From the NCBI RefSeq assembly GCF_001625215.2, contig NC_030381.2:39802689-39866688 (forward strand): a stretch of 64,000 bases of DNA. Reading direction: 5' to 3'. Each line of letters opens with the position of its first letter. Position 1 is the stretch's first letter. Source of the stretch: Daucus carota subsp. sativus. Lineage: Eukaryota; Streptophyta; Magnoliopsida; Apiales; Apiaceae. The notes under the pieces were generated by a model. That model ran no database searches and was not told the DNA's origin. It saw only the letters and a program-made list of their open reading frames with translations. The position numbers and the translations under genes were made by a program. Shown here in pieces: positions 3,112 to 61,850 of the stretch.

Positions 3112-5212
3112 ATGGCTTCCTCATCTCTCTCCAATTTCTTATCTCTCTTCATGCCCTCAAAACCCTCCCCATCTCCCCCTAAACTCCCTCCTTCCCACCT
3201 CTCTCTCTCCACAGACTCATCTGCTTTGAAACAAAAAGAGCCCCTGACCCCACTGATCTCCAACTCATGCCCCTCTAACGAATTGATGTCCGTGGTTTGC
3301 CCCTCTCTGCTTTACTCAAACACCCTTTTCTTCAGATCAGCTTATAATGTTCAGGTCATTGTGGATGATAATGAGCCTGAAGAGAAGCTTTTGGGTAGGT
3401 TCAGGAGGGAAGTCATGAGGGCTGGGATCATTCAGGAGTGTAAGAGGAGGAAGTATCATGAGAATAAACAGGATGAGAAGAAGCGAAAGACCCGAGAAGC
3501 TGCTAAGCGCAATCGACGAAGGTCTTTACCTTCTCTGCACCATTTCATTTCTCACATTGATATATGCATTTGTTAAACTTTGTTTTATTCCATTTTTGTG
3601 CATATGTTCATGTGTTTTGTCTATGGCTATTAGGAATGCCTTTCGGGTTTCAGTTGCTTCTGGTAATGTCTTCAGTTTATATTGTTCTGGGAATCCTAAT
3701 ATTCGATAGAAAATTGAATTTATAATTTCATATGCTTCATGGAATGAAATTTAAAAAAGGGGTTCATATTCATTCATATTCAGGGTATTCAAGTCATATT
3801 AATATTAGACTTTGTTTGGTTAAATTGAATGAAATGTGAAAATATTAGAAGTGGAGAGTTATAAGAGAATAATAAAAAGGAATAGTGATAATGCAGATGG
3901 TGCAAGGGGCGTTTGTTCATGGTTAATGAGCTCGATTAACGGGATTTGGAACCTCATATCTATATATTGGTGTTTGGATTAACAATTTTGTTGTGTGGAA
4001 TGGGAACCCCATTCCCTCTTGGTGGGTAAATCATTCTTTCCATACCCCCGGGGTCCACCCATTCCTGTTTCTGATTCCCATTCTCACCCACCATCCAAAC
4101 ACCCCCTAAAAGTTTTTATATTGTGTATTGTAACTGATTAAGATAGGGAGAAAGTAATGAACATTCACTGAAAGAAAAACAGAACTTCCATGGGACAGTG
4201 TGGAGTGACCAGAATAGTGGATGTTATGCATACATCAAACTGAAATAAACAAAGTGTCATCCTGTTCGAACAAGTCACTAAAGAATATCTCATTTTGACA
4301 ACACCCCCCGCCCCCCTCTCTCCATCCTCCATGATTTTTAAGTAGGGAATCTAGTGATTTTACCATCTTTTGTATTGCCCTTTTCTTCATTTGTATAAGC
4401 TTATAATACTTTCATATAATGATTTGGCTTTCTTATTTCTCTTGCACTGTTCAGTGCATTTTGGTTCCGGTTAAAAACTTAGGCTCAGAACCTAGGAAGC
4501 ACGGATGCTAGATATTATTTAATGCATCCTCGTGTCAGAGACTCAGGCCCTTGTATCTCCGCATCCAGTACTTTGATACTTGTCCAGTCCCAATTTTATT
4601 ATATCTATTATTACAAATTCTATGAGAAAATTTGAAAATAGAACACTATTTAGCAGTTAACAAACTGCTTCTACAAAAAACATAGTAAAGAGGCTATTTA
4701 GCAATTAAAAAGTATCGATGTTTAAATTATATGTCTAAGTCTAACACAAAAGTATTCACTTAAGCAATTATCTTTTATTTAGATTCACGTGTTGTAGATG
4801 ATTTAGTTATGCAGATGATTTAGTTATGCATACGGTTCAATTGCAATACCTAACATCAGATATATGATCCTATATATGAAATATACAGGGACCTGAATCC
4901 CCATATTATCATGTGTTGGATTCGTGTATCCCACACTAGGGACTTGTAATTTAGCTTGTTAGTTCAAAACACTGGTAAATATTTTTTATCTTTGCCTCTT
5001 CTAACTATGTGAGCATTTAATAATTTGTATATGCTTTTGGTCGAAAACCTCACTGGTGAAAGAAGTATAGTACACTGAAAGTGTTTTTTTATATGATAAG
5101 GCGTACCCCATTTCGAGCTGGGCCTCCAGAGAGGGTGGATACTGCTAAGAGCAGCAAGAAGGAAGAAGATGAGGACAACTGGGAACTTCCTCAAGGGGGC
5201 CTTCCCGGTTGA
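3112..5212 (+). CDS. RPS21: Plastid 30S ribosomal protein S21 (bS21c)
   Basis: Two exons, 3112-3521 and 5101-5212, with a GT-AG intron of 1579 bp and matching phase, giving 173 residues. Residues 1 to about 80 are rich in Ser and Pro and look like a plastid transit peptide. The bS21 domain starts at NVQVIVDDNEPEEKLLGRF and continues through REVMRAGIIQECKRRKYHE and a very basic KKRKTREAAKRNRRR. Exon 2 adds RRTPFRAGPP and an acidic tail ending LPQGGLPG. bS21 binds the small subunit near the mRNA exit; the Arabidopsis plastid copy is known as GHS1 (glucose hypersensitive 1). The length matches plant homologues. The first ATG that gives a transit peptide was taken as the start. The intron carries a TIR element at 3906-4106. 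Confidence 0.93.
3906..4106. mobile_element. Short TIR element (Tourist-like MITE candidate) in RPS21 intron
   Basis: The ends are imperfect inverted repeats: left ggggcgtttgttcatgg, right the complement of gggggtgtttggatggtgg. Flanking triplets are CAA on the left and TAA on the right, close to the TWA duplication of PIF/Harbinger elements. At 201 bp with no coding capacity it fits a MITE. Family assignment is tentative because the TIRs and the duplication are imperfect. Confidence 0.45.
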
Positions 5213-28039: not shown

Positions 28040-28560
28040 CGTATTTAATTCTAGCAGATATTGTTGATGATTGTGTTCACATTGGTAACAACATGACCAT
28101 TGAAAGTGTTAGAAATTTTGTGGTACCAACTGTTCAAATATTTGGAAAGCAATATTTAAGAAAGTTGAATGACTGACGATGGTTTTCTAGAATGCTAGGT
28201 AGCATAGATTGTATGCACTGAAGTAGAAAAAATGTCCGACTGCTATTATCCTCAGAACTATTGCTTCACACGATCTATGATAATGGCACGATTATTTCGA
28301 ATAATGAGGATCACTAAATGATATAAATGTGTTAGATCAATCCAACTTATTTTCTAAATAGGTAGAAGATCGAGCACCCAAAATTAAATATACCATTGCT
28401 GGTCACACTCACACATATGATATGGGATACTACCTAATTTATGGTTTATATCCTCCATATTCAACTTTTGCAAAGACTATTTCTGCTTCTCAACGGAATA
28501 GAAGAAAACATTTCGCTCAAATGCAAGAGTCGGCTAGAAAACATTTTGTAAAGTCTTTTT
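28040..28560 (+). pseudogene. Decayed PIF/Harbinger transposase remnant
   Basis: The plus strand, read through stops and frame changes, gives VDDCVHIGNNMTIESVRNF, VVPTVQIFGKQYLRKLND, MLGSIDCMH and later the frame for GHTYDMGYYL...YPPYSTFVKTIS...KRKHFAQMQESARK. These match in order the nuclease-type transposase of plant PIF/Harbinger elements (MLGSIDCMHWxWKN, GYYLADGIYPxWxTFVKTI). Many in-frame stops show it is dead. It differs clearly from the open transposase at 57.5-59.2 kb, so it belongs to another lineage. Element ends were not found. Confidence 0.85.
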
Positions 28561-29153: not shown

Positions 29154-30070
29154 GGGAAAATAGATTTTTTTGTCACCGAACTTATTATGTGTTTAGAAAC
29201 TTGCCACTCAACTAATTGTTTTTTTCCTTTTAGTCACTGATGTTAGGTTCAGAATTTTTTTTGCCACTAAAATTAGGTTCGGATTTGATTATTACCATTA
29301 TATTAATTCTTTGTAGTATTATTAAAATATTGTGATAACCTGTAATATTTTGATGATTTGATATATGTCTATCTTTATATATAGTACTTTATGTACCCAA
29401 GATCGTTTATTTTCAGTGATAAGAGTTAAACACGCATTTTACGGTTTCTAAAAATGTATTCATAAATTATTTTATTTTTTCTTCCGAATAAAAATTTAGT
29501 GTTTGAATTTTTATACGCAAAAAGAAAATCTCATAAATTATCGAAGATTAAATTTTCCTCTCTATTTATTTATCTTTATCTTGAAAATTATAATAAGATA
29601 AAGTTATTAAAAATTATGAGGATAAATTTAAGAGAGATCTTAGGCTGAACTAGGCTATTGAAACTTTAATAGTGAAAGATGATGCATCGTATCACTCAAT
29701 TAGACTTTATTTTATCATGGAGAGCATAAATTATTTGAAGTCAGTGATTTCATACTGATGATTTAATGAATTTCTAGAATTCTAATTACGAATTTTCCTG
29801 ATTTTAATATTATATCATCTCATTTTATGTTATTATTTCTACATACAAAGATATAAACATACATCATATTATCAAAAAATTATATACTATCACTATGTAG
29901 TAATGATGCTACAAAAAATATTACAATGCTAATAATCATATCCGAACCTAAATTAGTGGCTAAAAACAAATCCATACCTAACATCAGTGACTAAAAGGAA
30001 AAAAAATTTTAGTTGAGTGACAAGTTTCTAAAAACATAATAAGTTCGGTGACAAAAAAATCTATTTTCCC
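29154..30070. mobile_element. Non-autonomous MULE, family A copy 1
   Basis: A 917-bp element whose ends are long inverted repeats of at least 150 bp at roughly 85-90 % identity by eye. The left starts gggaaaatagatttttttgt and the right is the complement of the same string. Flanking 9-mers aaataaaat and ttataaaat agree at 7 of 9 positions, consistent with an aged MULE target duplication. The interior (gagagatcttagactga-like at 29630, gatgatgcatc at 29690) is shared with the copy at 39182-40048. No coding sequence was found. Confidence 0.75.
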
Positions 30071-36325: not shown

Positions 36326-36931
36326 CTATGCGGGTGAGGGAGAAATCCTGGCTTGATTCCCTGCACGCAAGAGTGGTGGCATGCTCGATCGCTGAGGGTG
36401 TAAATCCAGTACGTGATCAATTCCGTGGACAACAAGCCGGGACGAAATATAGATGTTAGGCTGCGTGATGATCGCCTTGTCTACCTTATAACTCCAAGGT
36501 ACAGTACTTGTGATGAGAATAGTTTTGTCAGGAACGAGAGTTGGAAGGAGCGACAATGGTTTCAAGTTTAAGAGATGCGAAAATAAGAGATGGTGGTTCG
36601 GAGTTATGTGGTAGGGAATGAGATGAGCGTTCAACTCAGCGAGGTGCGTGATGGCAGCGTCAGTAGGGGCAAACATGGTGGCGTTTACGGGGAGAACGAG
36701 TTGGGTTTTTGAGATATTTAATAAGTGAGCCCAGATTGTGAAGTTGCTTTCGCAGAGCTGAGCTTCGTAATTGCTTTCGCAAAGCAGAGCTTTGATGACG
36801 GCATCGGTTTCTTCTTGGTTGAGAGGCGGCAGAGGAGATGATGGAGTTGCATGCAAGGAGGGGAGGTTGAAGATTACGAGGGCAATGAAGAAGATTAAAA
36901 AGTTGAGAGAGTAGTTTTTGGCCATGCTCAC
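36326..36931 (-). CDS. Fasciclin-like (FAS1) arabinogalactan-type protein
   Basis: A single exon of 201 residues with a signal peptide at 1 to about 28 (NFLIFFIALVIFNLPSLHA). A Pro-rich segment and one FAS1 domain follow. The domain shows NISKTQLVLPVNATMFAPTD, then ITHLAELNAHLIPYHITP, and the C-terminal part IYISSRLVVHGIDHVLDLHP, which contains the conserved VHGIDxVL. Several N-glycosylation sites (NFT, NIS, NAT) are visible. It is short compared with most FLAs, has only one FAS1 domain and no clear GPI tail, which fits the FLA19-21-like group or a related secreted FAS1 protein. Cell-wall or extracellular adhesion roles are inferred from the family. A short internal repeat (LLCESNYEAQLCESN) precedes the domain. 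M3 (MAKNYS) is an equally possible start. Confidence 0.85.
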   Translation of the reverse strand: MSMAKNYSLNFLIFFIALVIFNLPSLHATPSSPLPPLNQEETDAVIKALLCESNYEAQLCESNFTIWAHLLNISKTQLVLPVNATMFAPTDAAITHLAELNAHLIPYHITPNHHLLFSHLLNLKPLSLLPTLVPDKTILITSTVPWSYKVDKAIITQPNIYISSRLVVHGIDHVLDLHPQRSSMPPLLRAGNQARISPSPA

Positions 36932-36990
36932 AATTGGTTAACGACGGTGGATTGTGGAATGTATGAAACAAAACTATGAAGCGACGTGGT

Positions 36991-37000: not shown

Positions 37001-37139
37001 AGTTGAATTTGCAGACTCCGAAACTGATTCTGAAAACATAAACCTATTTTGCCACTTTAGATTTCATTTATTATTTTCTACCCAAATACAATTTGTAATG
37101 AAAATTCTAATTCAAGATAAAGATTCTTAGAAGATCAGG

Positions 37140-37440
37140 ATCCGCTCACCGCAAACCACCAGCACATTCTCATCCTCCACCTGGACCTTAATATCTCCTG
37201 ATTTCAATCCAGGCATATCCACCACAAACACATAGGCATTCGGATACTCTTTAACATCAGCTGGAGTCATCGCCATGGCTTTCGCGTCGCGAACATAGCT
37301 CCTCGCCTGTTCAGACTTGTTCTTGTTGTTGCTCTCGTGCTGATCGTCTAGAATGTGGTAGAAAGTGTTGAGGAGTGGATGATCGTCTAGAATGTGGTAG
37401 AAAGTGTTGAGGAGTGGATGATCGATACCCAACTTACTGG
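37140..37440 (-). pseudogene. Truncated class II small heat-shock protein (HSP17-type) fragment
   Basis: The minus strand encodes [19 protein letters not shown], then [40 protein letters not shown] and [13 protein letters not shown], after which similarity to class II cytosolic small heat-shock proteins stops and the frame closes at ILIF. The remaining half of the alpha-crystallin domain, including the GVLTV strand and C-terminal extension, is absent. The original start codon is also missing: an ATG nearby is out of frame. A 39-bp segment is duplicated (37342-37380 and 37381-37419), repeating [13 protein letters not shown]. It lies at the 5' end of the retroposed insertion, in antisense orientation, and cannot make a functional chaperone. 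Confidence 0.85.
37342..37419. repeat. Perfect 39-bp tandem duplication in the HSP fragment
   Basis: Two adjacent identical 39-bp units, each starting gatcgtctagaatgtgg and ending aggagtggat. They preserve the frame and repeat 13 codons. Perfect identity suggests a recent event. Confidence 0.92.
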
Positions 37441-37475
37441 TGCATAATAATTCATAAATAAGTATAATCCTAGTG

Positions 37476-37613
37476 ATGGGGATCTTCTTCATTTTACACA
37501 TTGCCAACAAATTGAGACCCCAAAAAAGGGATGTGGCATACTATGTAGATCCGAACAACGAACCGCCGCCAATCAAGAAAGAAGGTACTGAGCGACCAAA
37601 GAAAACAAGGTGA
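37476..37613 (+). other. 45-codon open frame of unknown meaning in the retroposed insertion
   Basis: An ATG-started frame begins [16 protein letters not shown], continues with [16 protein letters not shown] and ends RPKKTR, closing at TGA 37611-37613. It has a short hydrophobic N-terminus and a basic tail. I do not recognise the family. Its composition is less AT-driven than surrounding chance frames, so it may be a piece of the retroposed transcript's real coding sequence. Confidence 0.35.
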
Positions 37614-38813
37614 TGTAATATTTAAAAGATTTTGATGGATCAAAAGATGATTTTGCTCGTGACAATTTATGAATTTTATTTTCGGATTCGGTATGTTTAT
37701 TCTCTCAATTTTATAGTTTTTCAAAATATCTCCGTCTCTTTGAAAAGGTATGATTCTTTCATCTTTTTTTGATTATATTGTTATGATCCAAAATAAATGC
37801 TTGCTATGTGTTTTTGCTTGTTCTTTTTGTTTTGTATATCTTATGAATTACGATAACATATCTACATCATAGAAATCATTTTATGCTTTTCCTCTTCTAA
37901 TTTTAAGGTTGTATAGAATTTTGAGTTGATTGAAATCATGGATTCGTATCTGTTTTAGAATTTTGTTTGATTAGTTTTGTAGATCAAGTCGAGTTATGTA
38001 TCCATTTTTTCCCGTTTTTCTAACATGTTTTATCTTAGCCGGATTTGTGATGGTTGACCGGAATATCGGTTTGAAATTAGGTCTGTTATAGATTCTCGAT
38101 ATAGATTTTCGATAGGTGTTCTTGATTGTATGTGTTTGTTAAGTATGTGATTTGATCTTCTAGATTAATCTTTTTAGTTTTTTAACATGTTTTTAGGTGC
38201 ATGTAATATTGTTGAGTGTTTCGATATCAATTTATTTTGAATTATGGCGTTGCTTTTATATATTATATTTGTATGTATATTTATGTGCAAATTTTTTAAA
38301 ATGCAAGTATTCAATTTTTTCGGTTAATTTTGGAAAGGAATATATCTTGTTAAATATTCTTTATGAATATTTAATAACATTTATGATGGTCTTTATTTAT
38401 CTTCTTAAGGTTTAAATTTTAAATTTTATGAATTCATAATTTATCATGATTGTATGATTTTTAGGCAATAATTTAATTTTAATTTGGACTGACTTTAATT
38501 ACGGGATCTCTCTTATTGGCTGTTCATTATTTATCTTTATTAGTTTTAATTGTATCAGTTACGTTTTAAATTGTGATTGAATAAATATTATTTATGAATA
38601 TTTAGTACCATTTATGGGGGTCATTATTGATGACATTTTATGCCTTTAATGGCTTTGAGTGCCATTTTTATGGCTTATTTTACCATTTTGATGGTCATTG
38701 CATTTAATATATTTAATTACGTGTTAAACTCAATTTTTATTCTTCAGTTAAATTATTAAATTTTAATGTGTCTAACCAAAGGATTTTCCTTTGGTTAGAT
38801 ATTTATTAATAAT

Positions 38814-38820
<7 letters not shown>

Positions 38821-38853
<33 letters not shown>
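38821..38853. repeat. (TA)n microsatellite
   Basis: About 16 uninterrupted TA units inside the retroposed insertion. Confidence 0.9.
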
Positions 38854-38855
<2 letters not shown>

Positions 38856-39181
38856 CCTCTCTATTTTTTTTATATATAAACTCTTTTGTTTTTGTTTTTA
38901 TTAGATTTTCTTGTATATTAATTTATATTTTGTTTGACTGTTTTTTCTCAGGATACTGTGGAAGCGAGCTGTATGGGTATTCTTTTCTCATTCATTTAAG
39001 CTTTATTGTCTAAACGTCCGGAGTTATGCTTGCATGGCTTTCGGTTAGATGATAAACTTTCTTGAAAGAAAGAAATCCCAGTTGCGGTTTATTGTATTTC
39101 GATACAATTCATCTACGATTATGTAGACCATTCAAAAAAAAAAAAAAGATAAAGATTCTTAGAAAGCTCTTAACTAAAAAT

Positions 39182-40048
39182 AGGAAAATAGATTTTTTTG
39201 TCACTCTAACTTATCGTGTTTTTAGAAACTTATCACCCAACTATTTTTTTTTTCCTTTTATTCACTAACGTTAGGTTTGGTTTTATTTTTAACCACCAAC
39301 TTAAGTTCGAATTTGATTACTAGTATTTAAACATCAAATTTTTACTCACTAATTTTTATAAATTAGTTCGGATTTTTTACTCACTAATTTTTATAAATTA
39401 GTTCGGATTTTTTATAAATTTTTACTCACTGATTTACCACCCAACTAATTTATAAAAATTTGATGTTTAAATTTTTATACAAAGAAGAAAATTTTTAAAA
39501 ATAATTATAGAACTATGTTTTATATGCGCCCTAAAATTCGCGTCGAACCGTGTGAGAAAACTATAAAGAAATGAGAGGGACATAGGGAGTAAAATTTTTG
39601 AAGATAAATTTAGGAGAGATCTTAGACTGAGCTAGTCGATTGAAACTTTAATAGCGAAAGATGATGCATCATATCACTCAAATACACTTTATCTTATAAG
39701 AGAAGGTGAATTGTTTGAAGTCATTAATTTCATATTCATGATTTATTGAATTTTTAGAATTCTAACTATGATTTTTCCTGATTTTAATTTTTCACCGACT
39801 CGTTTTATATTATTGTTGCTATATATAAATATATAAACATACGACACATTATCAAGATATTTCATACTATCACTATGTATAAAATGATGCTACAAAAATT
39901 ATATAATACTAATAATCAAATCCGAACCTAAGTTGGTGGCTAAAGATAAAACCAATCCTAATGTTAGTGAATAAAAGGAAAAAAAAATAGCCGGGTGGTA
40001 AATTTCTAAAAACATAATAAATTGAGTGTCAAAAAAATCTATTTTCCT
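39182..40048. mobile_element. Non-autonomous MULE, family A copy 2
   Basis: The ends are long inverted repeats: aggaaaatagatttttttgt on the left and its complement on the right, continuing with tagaaactta and ccttttattcactaa. TIRs and interior (aggagagatcttagactgag, gatgatgcatcatatcact) match the element at 29154-30070, so both are one family. Length is 867 bp and no coding sequence was found. No target duplication is obvious. The right flank is interrupted by the next MULE, which inserted directly beside it. Confidence 0.75.
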
Positions 40049-40055
40049 ATTTTTA

Positions 40056-40836
40056 GAGTTATTAACCAAAAAACCCAACTAACTTGTTATTTTTTTGCCG
40101 AAAAACCTTTAAACTTTTCTCTTCACTAACAATTCCAACAAACTTTATTAAAATCATATAAAAAAAATACAAAACAAACCATGGTTAAATATTTTAATCT
40201 GACTTGTCAAGTATCTCTCCATGATTTGTATCTTTTTATACACGTGTGTGCCACATAACGCCTATTCATTACACTGTTTGCCTCGTCATGTCTATTCAGT
40301 AATAATTTATTTTTTAATCATTTATAATATTTTAATTAATTTTATAACCCAAAGAAGATCCGAGGATAGTACTTGGCTAGCAAAAGAGTATGCAAGAAAG
40401 ATTGGAGATAGTGGGAACTTAACATGATGCTCAACAAACTTTCCGGTCTTGGGGTTTTTACGCTTCAAAACGAAATGGACCTTGTTTGTAACTCGACATT
40501 TATCAAGGCCAAACATAATAGAGTAAGCAGATTCATTGTCAAATCCTTTGGCTACCCAACCAGCCTCCGGGGGTCCTGAGCAATTAAAAATCAGTTGTAT
40601 CTGAAGCTTTACTGCACATAGGAATAGGAGGTTGGTTAATAAGATTTGTAATCATATTGTCACGTAAGAATATTTGTGATGATCATGGTTAGTCCACATC
40701 AGCTATAATTAACTCTAGTTAATTTATTTTTTTCAAAGATTGAGTAAAGTTTAATGGGGTTGTTGATGAAAAAAAAGGTTTAAAGGTTTATTGGCAAAAA
40801 AATGACAAGTTAGTTGGGTTTTTTGGTTAATAGCTC
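40056..40836. mobile_element. Pack-MULE carrying a calnexin fragment
   Basis: A perfect 9-bp direct repeat CTATTTTTA lies at 40047-40055 and 40837-40845. The 781-bp element has TIRs of about 100 bp: left gagttattaaccaaaaaacc, right the complement of gagctattaaccaaaaaacc. They continue with caactaacttgt and tttttttgcc at roughly 80 % identity. A 9-bp duplication and long TIRs define a Mutator-like element. The interior contains a host-gene exon (calnexin, 40412-40575), making it a Pack-MULE. There is no transposase. Confidence 0.88.
40412..40575 (-). pseudogene. Captured calnexin exon fragment
   Basis: The minus strand encodes [20 protein letters not shown], then [20 protein letters not shown] and [14 protein letters not shown]. 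This matches the lectin-like luminal domain of plant calnexin (FDNESPYSIMFGPDKCG, TNKVHFILKHKNPKSGEFVEHH). Just upstream the sequence reads ttgctcag, a 3' splice site, so genomic DNA with intron was captured. Similarity ends after KFP, where the remaining frame ([12 protein letters not shown]) is unrelated. It is a fragment of about 55 codons inside a MULE, with substitutions at conserved positions (GPDKCG changed to GLDKCR). Confidence 0.85.
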
Positions 40837-57478: not shown

Positions 57479-59167
57479 ATGAGGTAAGCTTTGTCTCAAT
57501 TGATTTCACACATCTTATACATCGATGAGATTTATATGTTTGAGAAGGCGAATTTTTGATTTTGTTTGTTTTATTTTACAGTTCAAGGGGTAATTCAGCT
57601 CAGTCGGCTCATGTGTAAGTATCTAGTATTGCTCACTGCTTGTTTATGTTCTTTCATGCCCTAATTTATGTCCTGCATCTAGGAGTATTTTGCTTGTTTG
57701 AACTGTTGCTTTTGTATTTATATATTTAGGGATTCTTAGGTTAATAACGATTGAGTTGATAATTATACGTTTTTTCTCAATCGAATCACAGAAATGTTCA
57801 TGTGTCAAACATTTCGCAAAAGCGTCCGAGGGAGAACGATGATGATACGGAATTTATAATATTAGTTTTAGGTTTTATTCAAGTAGTAGTGGCAGCTTGT
57901 TATGGTAAGAATTATAGGCCGAAAGAGTTAACGTGGAATGCACATGACCGTTCTCAAATTAGAGCTACTTGGATGAATACACTAAAGATCGATAGGATAT
58001 GTCGTGAACAATTGCGCCTTGATATACGACGATTTGAGAAGTTGTGTTATATTTTGGAAACTAAAGGTGGATTAGTAACTACAAAACATGTCACTGTGAA
58101 AGAAATTGTGGCATTGTTTCTTCATACTCTTGCACATGATTTGAAAAATAGAACTATACAAGCTGTGTTTGCACGTTCTGGAGAGACAGTGAGTCGACAG
58201 TTTCATATAGTACTTGGATCAGTACTCAAGCTGGGGAAGGATTACATAAGAAAAGTAGACCATGCCACTAGTTATGTCCATGATAACCAATGGAAATGGT
58301 TTGAGGTAATGTAAAAGCAAATTCAATTACTAATTATGTAGTTAATATCTTAATCTATTATTGAATAAGAACTAAACATATATTTAGGGTGCTGTTGGAG
58401 CTCTTGATGGGACACACATCAAAATGACTGTCCCTGTTGAGGATCGGCCTCGCTATCGAGATAGAAAAGGGGATATTAGCACTAATGTTCTAGCCACGTG
58501 TGATCCGGATTTGTGCTTCACATATGTTTTGCCTGGTTGGGAAGGATCGGCATCGGATCCTCGTGTTCTTCGCGATGCCCTCCGTAGATCAAATGGCTTG
58601 AAAGTTCCTAGAAGTAAGAATTTGCTCACCTTTTAGTTTTGGTCTGTCACTTCTAAACAGTTAATAATTAAAATGCTTAAATTACATGATGCAGAAAAAT
58701 ATTTTCTCGTGGATTTGGGCTTTACTAATAGTGAAGGATTCATGTCTCCTTACAACGGAACTCGATATCATTTGAATTTGTGGAGAGGAAACACTCCCAC
58801 TAATCACAAAGAACTTTTCAACTTGAGACACTCGTCCGCTCGCAATACCATTGAGAGGGCTTTTGGATTGTTGAAGAAGCGTTGGGCTATATTGAGAGAT
58901 GCTAGCTTTTATCCAAAAAAAATTCAAGTTAGAATCATTAATGCATGTTTTATTCTTCATAACTTTTTGAGGGAGGAAAAAATGGAGGAAAGAGTTTTTA
59001 TGCAAGAAGTAGAAAGAGACTTGGATAGGATGGAAGCAATTGATGTGGAAGATGATGAAGATGATTACATATCTACTGCTAGATCAACAAATGAATGGAA
59101 CGAATTTAGAGATAATCTTGCAAAGAAAATGTTTGAAGAATATGTTGGACGGACTAGAGCTACATAA
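57479..59167 (+). CDS. PIF/Harbinger transposase (DDE nuclease)
   Basis: Five exons, 57479-57483, 57582-57614, 57792-58305, 58388-58613 and 58695-59167, in phase, giving 416 residues; the first coding exon is only 5 nt and is inferred. An N-terminal helical region includes LDIRRFEKLCYILETKGGL, VTVKEIVALFLHTLAHDLKN and ARSGETVSRQFHIVL, the usual helix-turn-helix part. The catalytic core follows: GALDGTHIKMTVP (D191), YFLVDLGFTNSEGFMSPY (about D266), and ARNTIERAFGLLKKRWAILR (E313), then IINACFILHNFLREE. Family knowledge says this enzyme cuts at TTA/TAA targets and works with the Myb-like partner. The frame is fully open. The more conservative start is MSNISQ near 57802 if the 5-nt exon is wrong. 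Confidence 0.9.
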
Positions 59168-59780: not shown

Positions 59781-59962
59781 TAATATGTTTTAAGTCTCTG
59801 ATCTGTATATAATGTAGCCTTATCTTTACAATTTATTAATAATAATCTGTAGTTGTTAAACCTGGCAAGAAGTACCAGCACAGCATGTTGTTTGAGTTTT
59901 CAGCAGAATAAGCAAGTACCATTTATTGTGTTTGCAGGTACCGCAGACAAGAAAAACAACCT

Positions 59963-61850
59963 ATGGCTCCACGAACTGATCAACCAACTGTACCAGTTCA
60001 GAAAAGGGGATATTTAGCATGGACCCCGGACATGGATAACATATTAACTTCAACGTTGTATGATCAGATTAACGAAGGAAATAAAGGCGATGGAAATTTT
60101 AAGACTCAAGCTTATCAGGCTGTGGTTGATAAGCTGCGGCTTGAGGGTATATTAGTTACTGTGGATCATGTGAAACACCGAACTAAGATTTGGAAGAAGC
60201 ATTATGGTGTGATTACTGACATTAAGAATTTTACCAAATTCAAGTGGGACGAAGAAAAGAAGATGTTGGTGATACCGGTAGAAGATCTTGCAGAATGGAA
60301 GTCTTATTGTGAGGTAATAGTCTTATTGTGCTACTTTTACTCCTGTCACTTGTTAGCATTTTTAATCTTGTTTCTTTTCTTCCCCTCTATTTCTAATTAT
60401 GAAGTGAAGTCCTTTTCTTGGTTTCCAATTTTTACAGTTGTGGGGATAGGAGAGCTAAATACTTTCTTGTCCCTCATACAAGTACAACATCTGTCTTTAA
60501 CTTCTTTTCAATAAAACAGAATTAACCATTAAGTATAATCATATAATCAGGCTTATTACTCTCAACCGAGTTAGGAAATATATTCATATAATCAGGCTTA
60601 TTACTCAGCTACATGATAACTTCTAAAAGTTAGTTGGTAAGTAACAGACAGCTCAGCAGAATGGACTACTTCAATGGAACAGAATGGTGATGCAGCAGTG
60701 CTGTTTGGTTGTAATATATAAACAACATATTGCAGTTTGCAGGATAGTTCACTTCTCTCTTAACAACAATGTGTAATTAGCTTTAGACTTTCTCTCTGAA
60801 GGTTGTATAATAGCACTGTACTGGATATTTTTCATTGGGAGATAGTATACTTGGTTTAAAAAACCGAACAAGACTAAAAAATACCAGCAACATACTATAA
60901 AGTGAAGTACACAGTTCCTGAAAATTTTATATACTTTCCACTGTTACTAATATCAACCAGGAAACAGAAGCCTTGATACAATGATAAATACACTTTAGCC
61001 TTGATACAAAGACCGCCACCTGCATGTTTGAAAGTTGTTAAATATGTTAGAAATTTGTTAGTTCATAATCTTGTAATAGAATGGAAGACCTGCTATAAGT
61101 TTAATACTGATTGAAATAATATGTTAGTCTAGAATATAAACAAGGTGATACTAGTGAATTTTTATTTACAGAGCAGGTAGATACTAGATAGTATATTTGT
61201 AGGACCTATGATTAAAAAAAATGTTATTTGTGAGTTTATGATCTCTAATAGATAGTGTAGGATAGTTAGGTGCATCTGAATTAGTTTACTTATGTTTTCT
61301 GTTAAATTTATTAAACTTGTATAATTGTATATAGGCTATAAAATGGGTTCCAGCAGAGGTGCATTAGTCATATGTTTTCTATTGTGAATTATTTGGCCAG
61401 GGAGTTCCAGATGCTTCTGCATACAAGAACAAGCGTATTCCAAATTGGGATGACATATGTACTCTATTTGCTTCCGATAGAGCCATTGGTGATGGTGCAG
61501 AGCAGTTTGAGGAGTCAGCAGCTGCCATGGAACTTGAAAATGAATTTAGCACTGCTGAGACGGGTTCTGGTGAATCAAATAAAAGGCAGAAAAGAGATCG
61601 CCTTGCTGATGCTGTCACTAGTTTCGCAGAATCGTTCAAGGAATATGTGAGCAAAGCAAAAGAGCCTCCAAGACCCACTTGCAAAGAAATATACGAGGTT
61701 GTATCTGAAGTTTATGGTATTACGGATGATCAAGCTATGAGGGCTGTCAAGAGATTCGTGAATGGCAAAGTTGACGAGTTTGAGATGCTTAAAAGTTTGC
61801 CTGATAATGAGAAAAAGCGCAGTTGGATATTGTTGCTTATTACTGAGTAG
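59963..61850 (+). CDS. Myb/SANT-like partner protein of the PIF/Harbinger transposon
   Basis: Two exons, 59963-60313 and 61401-61850, in phase, giving 266 residues. The Myb/SANT-like domain (Myb_DNA-bind_3 type) spans about 15-120: RGYLAWTPDMDNILTSTLYD, NFKTQAYQAVVDKLRLEGI, VKHRTKIWKKHYGVITDIK and KFKWDEEKKMLVIP, with the Trp spacing of SANT domains. Exon 2 begins GVPDASAYKNKRIPNWDDIC, typical of this family, and ends in a helical acidic part (AFESFKEY-like, EVYGITDDQAMRAVKRFVNG). In PIF/Harbinger elements this protein binds DNA near the ends and carries the transposase into the nucleus. It is the second ORF of the element and has no disabling mutation. Confidence 0.88.

Follow-up and report, generated by a model that had tools for sequence, protein, structure and literature searches.

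Chimeric insertions in which a retroelement body is joined to pieces of mRNA and flanked by target-site duplications (TSDs) have been described for LINE-1 in mammals (Law and Burns, 2026; PMC13174262). In the relevant part of that report, sense pieces are ascribed to template switching, RNA ligation or trans-splicing and antisense pieces to twin priming, and one mRNA/LINE-1 chimera is described as having arisen twice, from a cis-spliced source. In fungi, bipartite and tripartite chimeric retrogenes involving the MGL LINE, Mg-SINE and WEIRD are attributed to RNA template switches, double ones included, in LINE reverse transcription; the same account describes 14-bp direct repeats around a tripartite element and notes tripartite LINE chimeras in fungi, human and mouse (Gogvadze et al., 2007; PMC2104539). 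In Arabidopsis, the non-autonomous Sadhu retroposons carry a poly(A) stretch and are flanked by TSDs of 7-16 bp; LINE machinery is believed to move them, and template switching was invoked for three derivatives in which foreign sequence precedes the poly(A) (PMC2848041). More generally, L1-like retrocopies with a TSD and an A tail are known in dicots (PMC4838847). In the literature that we searched, mainly outside subscription journals, we recognised no plant report of the retroposon family characterized here or of such mosaics. In human, the non-autonomous element SVA_F1 acquired a MAST2 exon at its 5′ end through a spliced joint and spread further.

In the current study, we analysed a window of 64,000 nucleotides from Daucus carota subsp. 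sativus (the whole stretch of NC_030381.2 from 39,802,689 to 39,866,688), which contains an insertion of about 2 kb headed by an antisense fragment of a small heat-shock protein (sHSP) gene. Our preferred reading, to which we assign a probability of roughly 0.7, is that the insertion is a 5′-truncated daughter of a chimeric, apparently non-autonomous retroposon that arose by template switching of a reverse transcriptase (RT) onto host RNAs and was then remobilised. As far as the published descriptions extend, this resembles the mammalian chimeras in the TSD-flanked joining of a retroelement body to mRNA-like pieces, and differs in that no enzyme of its own was detected for the carrot body, a plant retroposon, that one foreign 5′ part (hereafter, head) is a mosaic of four traced loci, and that one chimera was found at three sites. 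The fungal chimeras are alike in the RNA template switches, double ones included, during LINE reverse transcription that we propose here; their partners as described are a few named RNAs, whereas for each carrot head that was traced the source is another locus or group of loci. Sadhu and the carrot family are both plant non-autonomous retroposons with poly(A) and TSDs, a likeness in features; in Sadhu, the reported foreign sequence is short and sits at the 3′ end (the one described measures 19 bp), whereas the carrot heads lie at the 5′ end. SVA_F1 shares with the HSP chimera a 5′ host piece spread by a non-autonomous element, but its joint is spliced, whereas the HSP joint showed no splice sites. 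Mechanisms of these classes are already known from mammals and fungi; what seems new is how widespread the heads are, that some consist of several pieces, and that the host is a plant.

Table 1. Features of the insertion in the window and of sister copies elsewhere in the genome (subfamily in parentheses).
Feature	Position in window	Strand	Head	Remarks or source
Left target-site duplication, 19 bp	37114..37132	+		exact direct repeat AAGATAAAGATTCTTAGAA
8-nt filler at 5′ junction	37133..37140	+		not present at this place in C2 and C8 chimeras; window insert position 9 aligns to C8 insert position 208
Antisense fragment of class II small heat-shock protein gene	37141..37426	-		PF00011, 5ds1, genome matches
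Exact 39-bp tandem duplication within HSP part	37341..37418	+		between TGATCG words
97-bp patch from second locus	37424..37520	+		C1:1415394, 97% match
5′ module of subfamily A	37524..38418	+		other A copies join different heads at 37524-37548
3′ module common to older subfamilies C (from ~38419) and B (from ~38558)	38419..39133	+		
Structured 3′ end	38950..39133	+		RNA fold -52 kcal/mol, z -3.52
Poly(A) tail, 12 A ahead of right TSD	39134..39145	+		
Right target-site duplication, 19 bp	39146..39164	+		exact direct repeat AAGATAAAGATTCTTAGAA
L011 (A)			99 bp	C7:23.43 Mb, 60 bp
L012 (A)			217 bp	one source, C4:43.68 Mb
L013 (A)			144 bp	98-bp patch, C6:22.03 Mb, 100%; second place on C4, 95%
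L014 (A)			299 bp	four sources: C1:32.63, C4:50.33, C1:50.10, C8:18.91 Mb
L019 (A)			52 bp	no traced source
L029 (B)				two sources
L030 (B)				one source
L041 (B)				one source
L031 (B)				no traced source
L023 (B)			none	complete copy, 11-bp TSD
L032 (C)				30 bp from C7:28.04 Mb
L036 (C)				two sources
L065 and L067 (C)			~37 and ~38 bp	no traced source

The insert proper (37133-39145) lies between exact 19-bp direct repeats and ends in an A run. A sequence-only reading of the window had pointed out both, and both were confirmed; the run comprises 14 A (39134-39147), the final two of which belong also to the repeat. Microsatellites and the arm of a MITE excepted, this is the sole exact 19-mer repeat in the window with copies more than 100 bp apart. 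With the insert as query, the genome (441 Mb, 11 contigs) yielded at least 76 matching stretches from the 40 candidates scored out of 1355, so that all counts are lower bounds. Copies of the family are truncated at variable 5′ points and have the 3′ end in common, and a poly(A) tail is present in the window insert and in other copies. In 16 copies chosen because a TSD had already been seen, with the window copy left out, the longest word shared by the two flanks was 14-18 bp, as against 12 bp or less in 239 of 240 cross-paired flanks and 14 bp in the other. One resolved duplication, around the truncated copy at ~2924-3600 of L022, is unusually long (~77 bp). By eye, the insertion sites are L1-like. 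The TSD, the A tail and the variable 5′ truncation with a common 3′ end support the earlier attribution to LINE-type retroposition, and the insert is a 5′-truncated member of a LINE-type, apparently non-autonomous retroposon family.

The 3′ end of this family is structured. None of 200 shuffles of the final 184 nt was as stable as the native fold, and the two hairpins of the tail, at 39092-39107 (with a TTCG loop) and 39112-39127, are mostly invariant by eye. With up to two mismatches, the tail motif occurs at 372 places in the genome, compared to four for a reversed control. Subfamilies A, B and C have about the last 590-730 bp in common and differ in their 5′ modules, which suggests that whole subfamilies may themselves have begun as chimeras. 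LINE ORF2-type genes exist in the genome, with at least 150 zf-RVT matches (150 of 1372 candidates scored), many of them in open frames of 1200-1380 aa. No zf-RVT match was found within 63 kb of a tail motif when 100 of the 372 tail places were compared with 150 of the 1372 candidates; presumably, then, the family depends on an enzyme provided in trans. A Pfam scan of one body ORF gave no match, and there was no Rfam match at the gathering threshold and no detected tRNA. The idea of an intron in the body (GTGATG...TTTTTTCTCAG) was dropped, as no copy without that stretch was noticed.

The head of the window insert is composed of two foreign parts. Read on the minus strand, 37141-37426 corresponds to the N-terminal half of a class II small HSP; the frame is open, lacks the first seven or eight codons and breaks off in the alpha-crystallin domain, where GER are the last residues. 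Pfam HSP20 (PF00011) is matched by the minus-strand ORF over 37127-37540 with an E value of 1.2e-6, and among solved structures the closest relative of this ORF is the 17.1-kDa class II HSP 5ds1 (E 1.8e-18). An antisense class II sHSP at the start of the insert, as the sequence-only reading had it, is thus borne out, except that the homology begins at 37141 and not at 37133. The 39-bp duplication, which the sequence-only reading had overlooked, is found in all three chimeras described below and is absent from the sHSP genes L024 and L025; the two TGATCG words that flank it lie 39 bp apart in L024. The end of the HSP part and the start of the 97-bp patch have GAT in common. Outside the chimeras, this patch matches only C1:1.415 Mb (10 of 10 candidates scored), where it immediately precedes, in the same orientation, what is by eye a last-exon-like frame; the retroposon body was not found there within the 9.9 kb looked at. 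A genome search with 251 bases of the HSP part of the C8 chimera gave 11 places, namely the three chimeras and eight sHSP-like places, of which four form a cluster at C6:26.01-26.03 Mb (90-96% identity), one is at C6:20.97 Mb (87%) and three are on C2 (78-83%). The window HSP part is 95% and 93% identical to two C6 genes over 245 bp. The best relatives of the HSP part are 93-96% identical to it, as against 96.7-98.2% between the bodies of the three chimeras and four other A bodies. The gene from which the HSP part truly descends may accordingly be missing, or else the joining may be older than the A copies.

The same HSP-body unit, with an A tail, occurs at C2:39.38 Mb and C8:23.11 Mb. These chimeras have the joints and the 39-bp duplication in common with the window copy and differ from it in 5′ cut points and TSDs (AAGATTAAGATAATATTT at C2 and AAGAATTTACACGCACC at C8). 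Their 5′ ends are nested within the antisense HSP. The C8 copy is the longest, starting 4 nt past the HSP stop codon and carrying the reversed coding sequence except for its first seven or eight codons; its HSP piece of ~490 bp is almost only coding sequence, and the frame is open (HSP20 E 2.7e-31). The C2 copy starts further inside the HSP, after a 6-nt filler, and the window copy further still, after its 8-nt filler. In 1999 ungapped columns, there is one private substitution in C8, six in C2 and five in the window copy, and none is common to a pair. This star pattern, with fewest changes in C8, indicates that C8 is, or lies near, the source; that the source is a copy not seen here is conceivable. 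In any case, the order antisense sHSP, 97-nt patch, subfamily-A body and poly(A) predates the window insertion. The C8 chimera has itself been hit by a DNA element of ~960 bp with inverted-repeat-like ends, inserted in a TA repeat (L010 ~3316-4276). On the same strand, ~2 kb upstream, there is a protein kinase ORF (PF00069; L010 8134-8736) that is a possible source of read-through.

When sister copies were compared, heads of diverse origin were found at their 5′ ends. The 40 loci examined (the window, L009-L023, L026-L043 and six subfamily-C copies) were the best scored and not a random sample. A duplication was resolved in 21; the other 19 were left uncounted (L016, L017, L018, L026, L027, L028, L033, L034, L035, L037, L038, L039, L040, L042 and L043; L061 and L063, with no TSD; L059, with an imperfect TSD; and L057, whose supposed head proved to be an interspersed repeat). 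Support is weak for two of the counted copies, L065 (12-bp TSD) and L023 (11-bp TSD). With the HSP triad taken as one, these represent 19 events, 14 with a head (the HSP founder, L011, L012, L013, L014, L019, L029, L030, L031, L041, L032, L036, L065 and L067) and five without (L015, L020, L021, L022 and L023). L015, L020, L021 and L022 are cut inside the body; the notion that every complete copy has a head was dropped on account of L023, which is complete and headless. Ten of the 14 heads were traced, each to one to four other loci, for a total of 16 patches including the HSP and 97-bp parts. The genome search traced no source for L019, L031, L065 and L067, which is no proof that a source is missing, since simple repeats and words of very high frequency are passed over in such a search. 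In subfamily A, L011, L012, L013, L014 and L019 each have their own duplication and the same body from 37524-37548. The head of L014 combines patches from three chromosomes; one of them, of 117 bp, is by eye antisense to its source gene, and a CSA/ERCC-8 label for one L014 source gene is weak (E 0.46). According to the sequence-only reading, finding the whole 2-kb unit many times as an ordinary transposable element (TE) family would have told against its proposal. The body does belong to a repeat family, but the HSP-bearing unit was found at three sites only in this assembly and the 5′ heads vary. An ordinary TE unit without a foreign part was rejected because heads differ among copies, as was a processed retrogene of a single mRNA, there being three sources (an sHSP gene, C1:1.415 Mb and the body family).

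Two of the traced heads favour RNA as the template. The beginning of the L012 head maps 34 nt downstream of the first base of a TATATAAA box in the source and has one additional G not found there; this is likely a transcription start, the extra G being as expected of a capped 5′ end. The patch of L029 ends at ...CATCAG/GTCTTC of an open exon-like frame (by eye; no Pfam match), likely an exon donor, and the part of the body after the joint follows AATAAG in other B copies. The antisense patches (that of HSP and, by eye, the 117-bp patch of L014) are compatible with the other DNA end having primed on a second RNA. Exonic status or orientation against a gene was shown for few patches, the source stretches being mostly short and the gene readings made by eye. 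Alternatively, the heads could be DNA-templated filler, in which case plant end-joining or synthesis-dependent repair would have copied short genomic stretches, of either strand, into the 5′ joint. Many patches are in fact short (30-117 bp) and come from several chromosomes, antisense pieces occur, the HSP part shares GAT with its neighbour, and the C2 and window copies have fillers at their 5′ joints. However, DNA filler would not lead one to expect the L012 start with its extra G, the likely donor at the end of the L029 patch, a C8 piece confined almost to coding sequence, or four body-truncated copies without heads, and we therefore regard it as rather unlikely, though as a serious rival.

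Heads could also have been gained by 5′ transduction, an A element beside an sHSP copy and the 97-bp sequence having given rise to a read-through or spliced RNA with no RT jump. Co-transcription would account for remobilisation, and the joint in L029 fits CAG/GT to AG/, whereas those of L012, L030 and the HSP chimera do not. L030 has the same body join point as L029, and its source (by eye the end of an ORF; no Pfam match) has no donor site, so that no single process explains all joints. Splicing alone as the cause of all heads was rejected, given that the L012 head ends mid-sequence and neither its source nor that of L030 has a donor at the joint. Against transduction, a joint locus was not found in the assembly: the C8 HSP piece matched only the chimeras and sHSP-like places elsewhere, and the sole other place of the 97-bp patch had no body within the 9.9 kb looked at. 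The L014 head would moreover require four joined loci. Transduction is consequently unlikely, and template switching onto host RNAs remains the reading that we prefer.

The insert could possibly make RNA complementary to sHSP mRNA, judging from its letters: 95 and 72 of 280 21-mers are identical to two sHSP genes, with longest exact matches of 48 and 47 nt, respectively. It might accordingly be asked whether antisense RNA or siRNA from the insert regulates class II sHSP genes and was kept for that role. The existence of three copies would agree with such a role, but they are near-identical and transposition alone explains the pattern, making a regulatory function very improbable. Finally, an inversion or switch at the window insertion itself (twin priming), of which an antisense 5′ piece is the classical sign, is refuted for this site, because two further chimeras have the same joints and duplication with different TSDs and cut points, and the HSP and body parts match different loci. 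Among the origins that the sequence-only reading had offered, a pre-existing chimeric RNA therefore fits the window site, and an event during that insertion does not.

Template switching or twin priming is nevertheless the best account of the founder insertion. We propose that a LINE-type enzyme copies retroposon RNA from the tail during target-primed reverse transcription and that, before the 5′ joint is closed, it may switch to host RNAs in or near the 5′ part of the retroposon RNA, in some cases several times. In the HSP founder, best represented by the C8 copy, the first strand would have switched to the 97-nt patch, and the other DNA end would have primed on sHSP mRNA near the stop codon (twin priming on a second RNA), yielding the antisense piece; alternatively, a naturally occurring antisense RNA could have supplied that piece. 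The 39-bp duplication would have come from a short slip backward from one TGATCG word to the other. The chimera would then have been transcribed and retroposed again to give the C2 and window copies. Sister copies with varied scraps suggest how elements join unrelated sequences and spread the product. If the RNA reading is true, they record in nature which RNAs a plant LINE enzyme could reach, point to a way in which new chimeric transcripts come about and show, in one concrete case, the spread of a stress-gene fragment in antisense orientation. It is conceivable, at somewhat short of even odds, that insertion across the whole retroposon superfamily (~370 tail-motif places) commonly appends patchworks of host RNA at the 5′ end, and that remobilised chimeras found new subfamilies; each complete insertion would in that event record RNAs near the reverse transcriptase.

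The surroundings of the window insert contain several other elements. Immediately to its left is a minus-strand ORF with a fasciclin domain (36326-36937; PF02469, E 2e-7), and to its right a minus-strand calreticulin-like fragment (40322-40651; PF00262, E 2e-11). An AT-rich, MITE-like element with long terminal inverted repeats is present in two copies (39173-40057 and 29154-30070), the left arm of the former being separated by about 9 bases from the end of the retroposon's right TSD. Further away, ORFs at 57763-59167 and 59912-61850 appear by eye to encode a Harbinger-type transposase and a MYB/SANT-like partner, and a degraded piece resembling them lies near 28200-28530.
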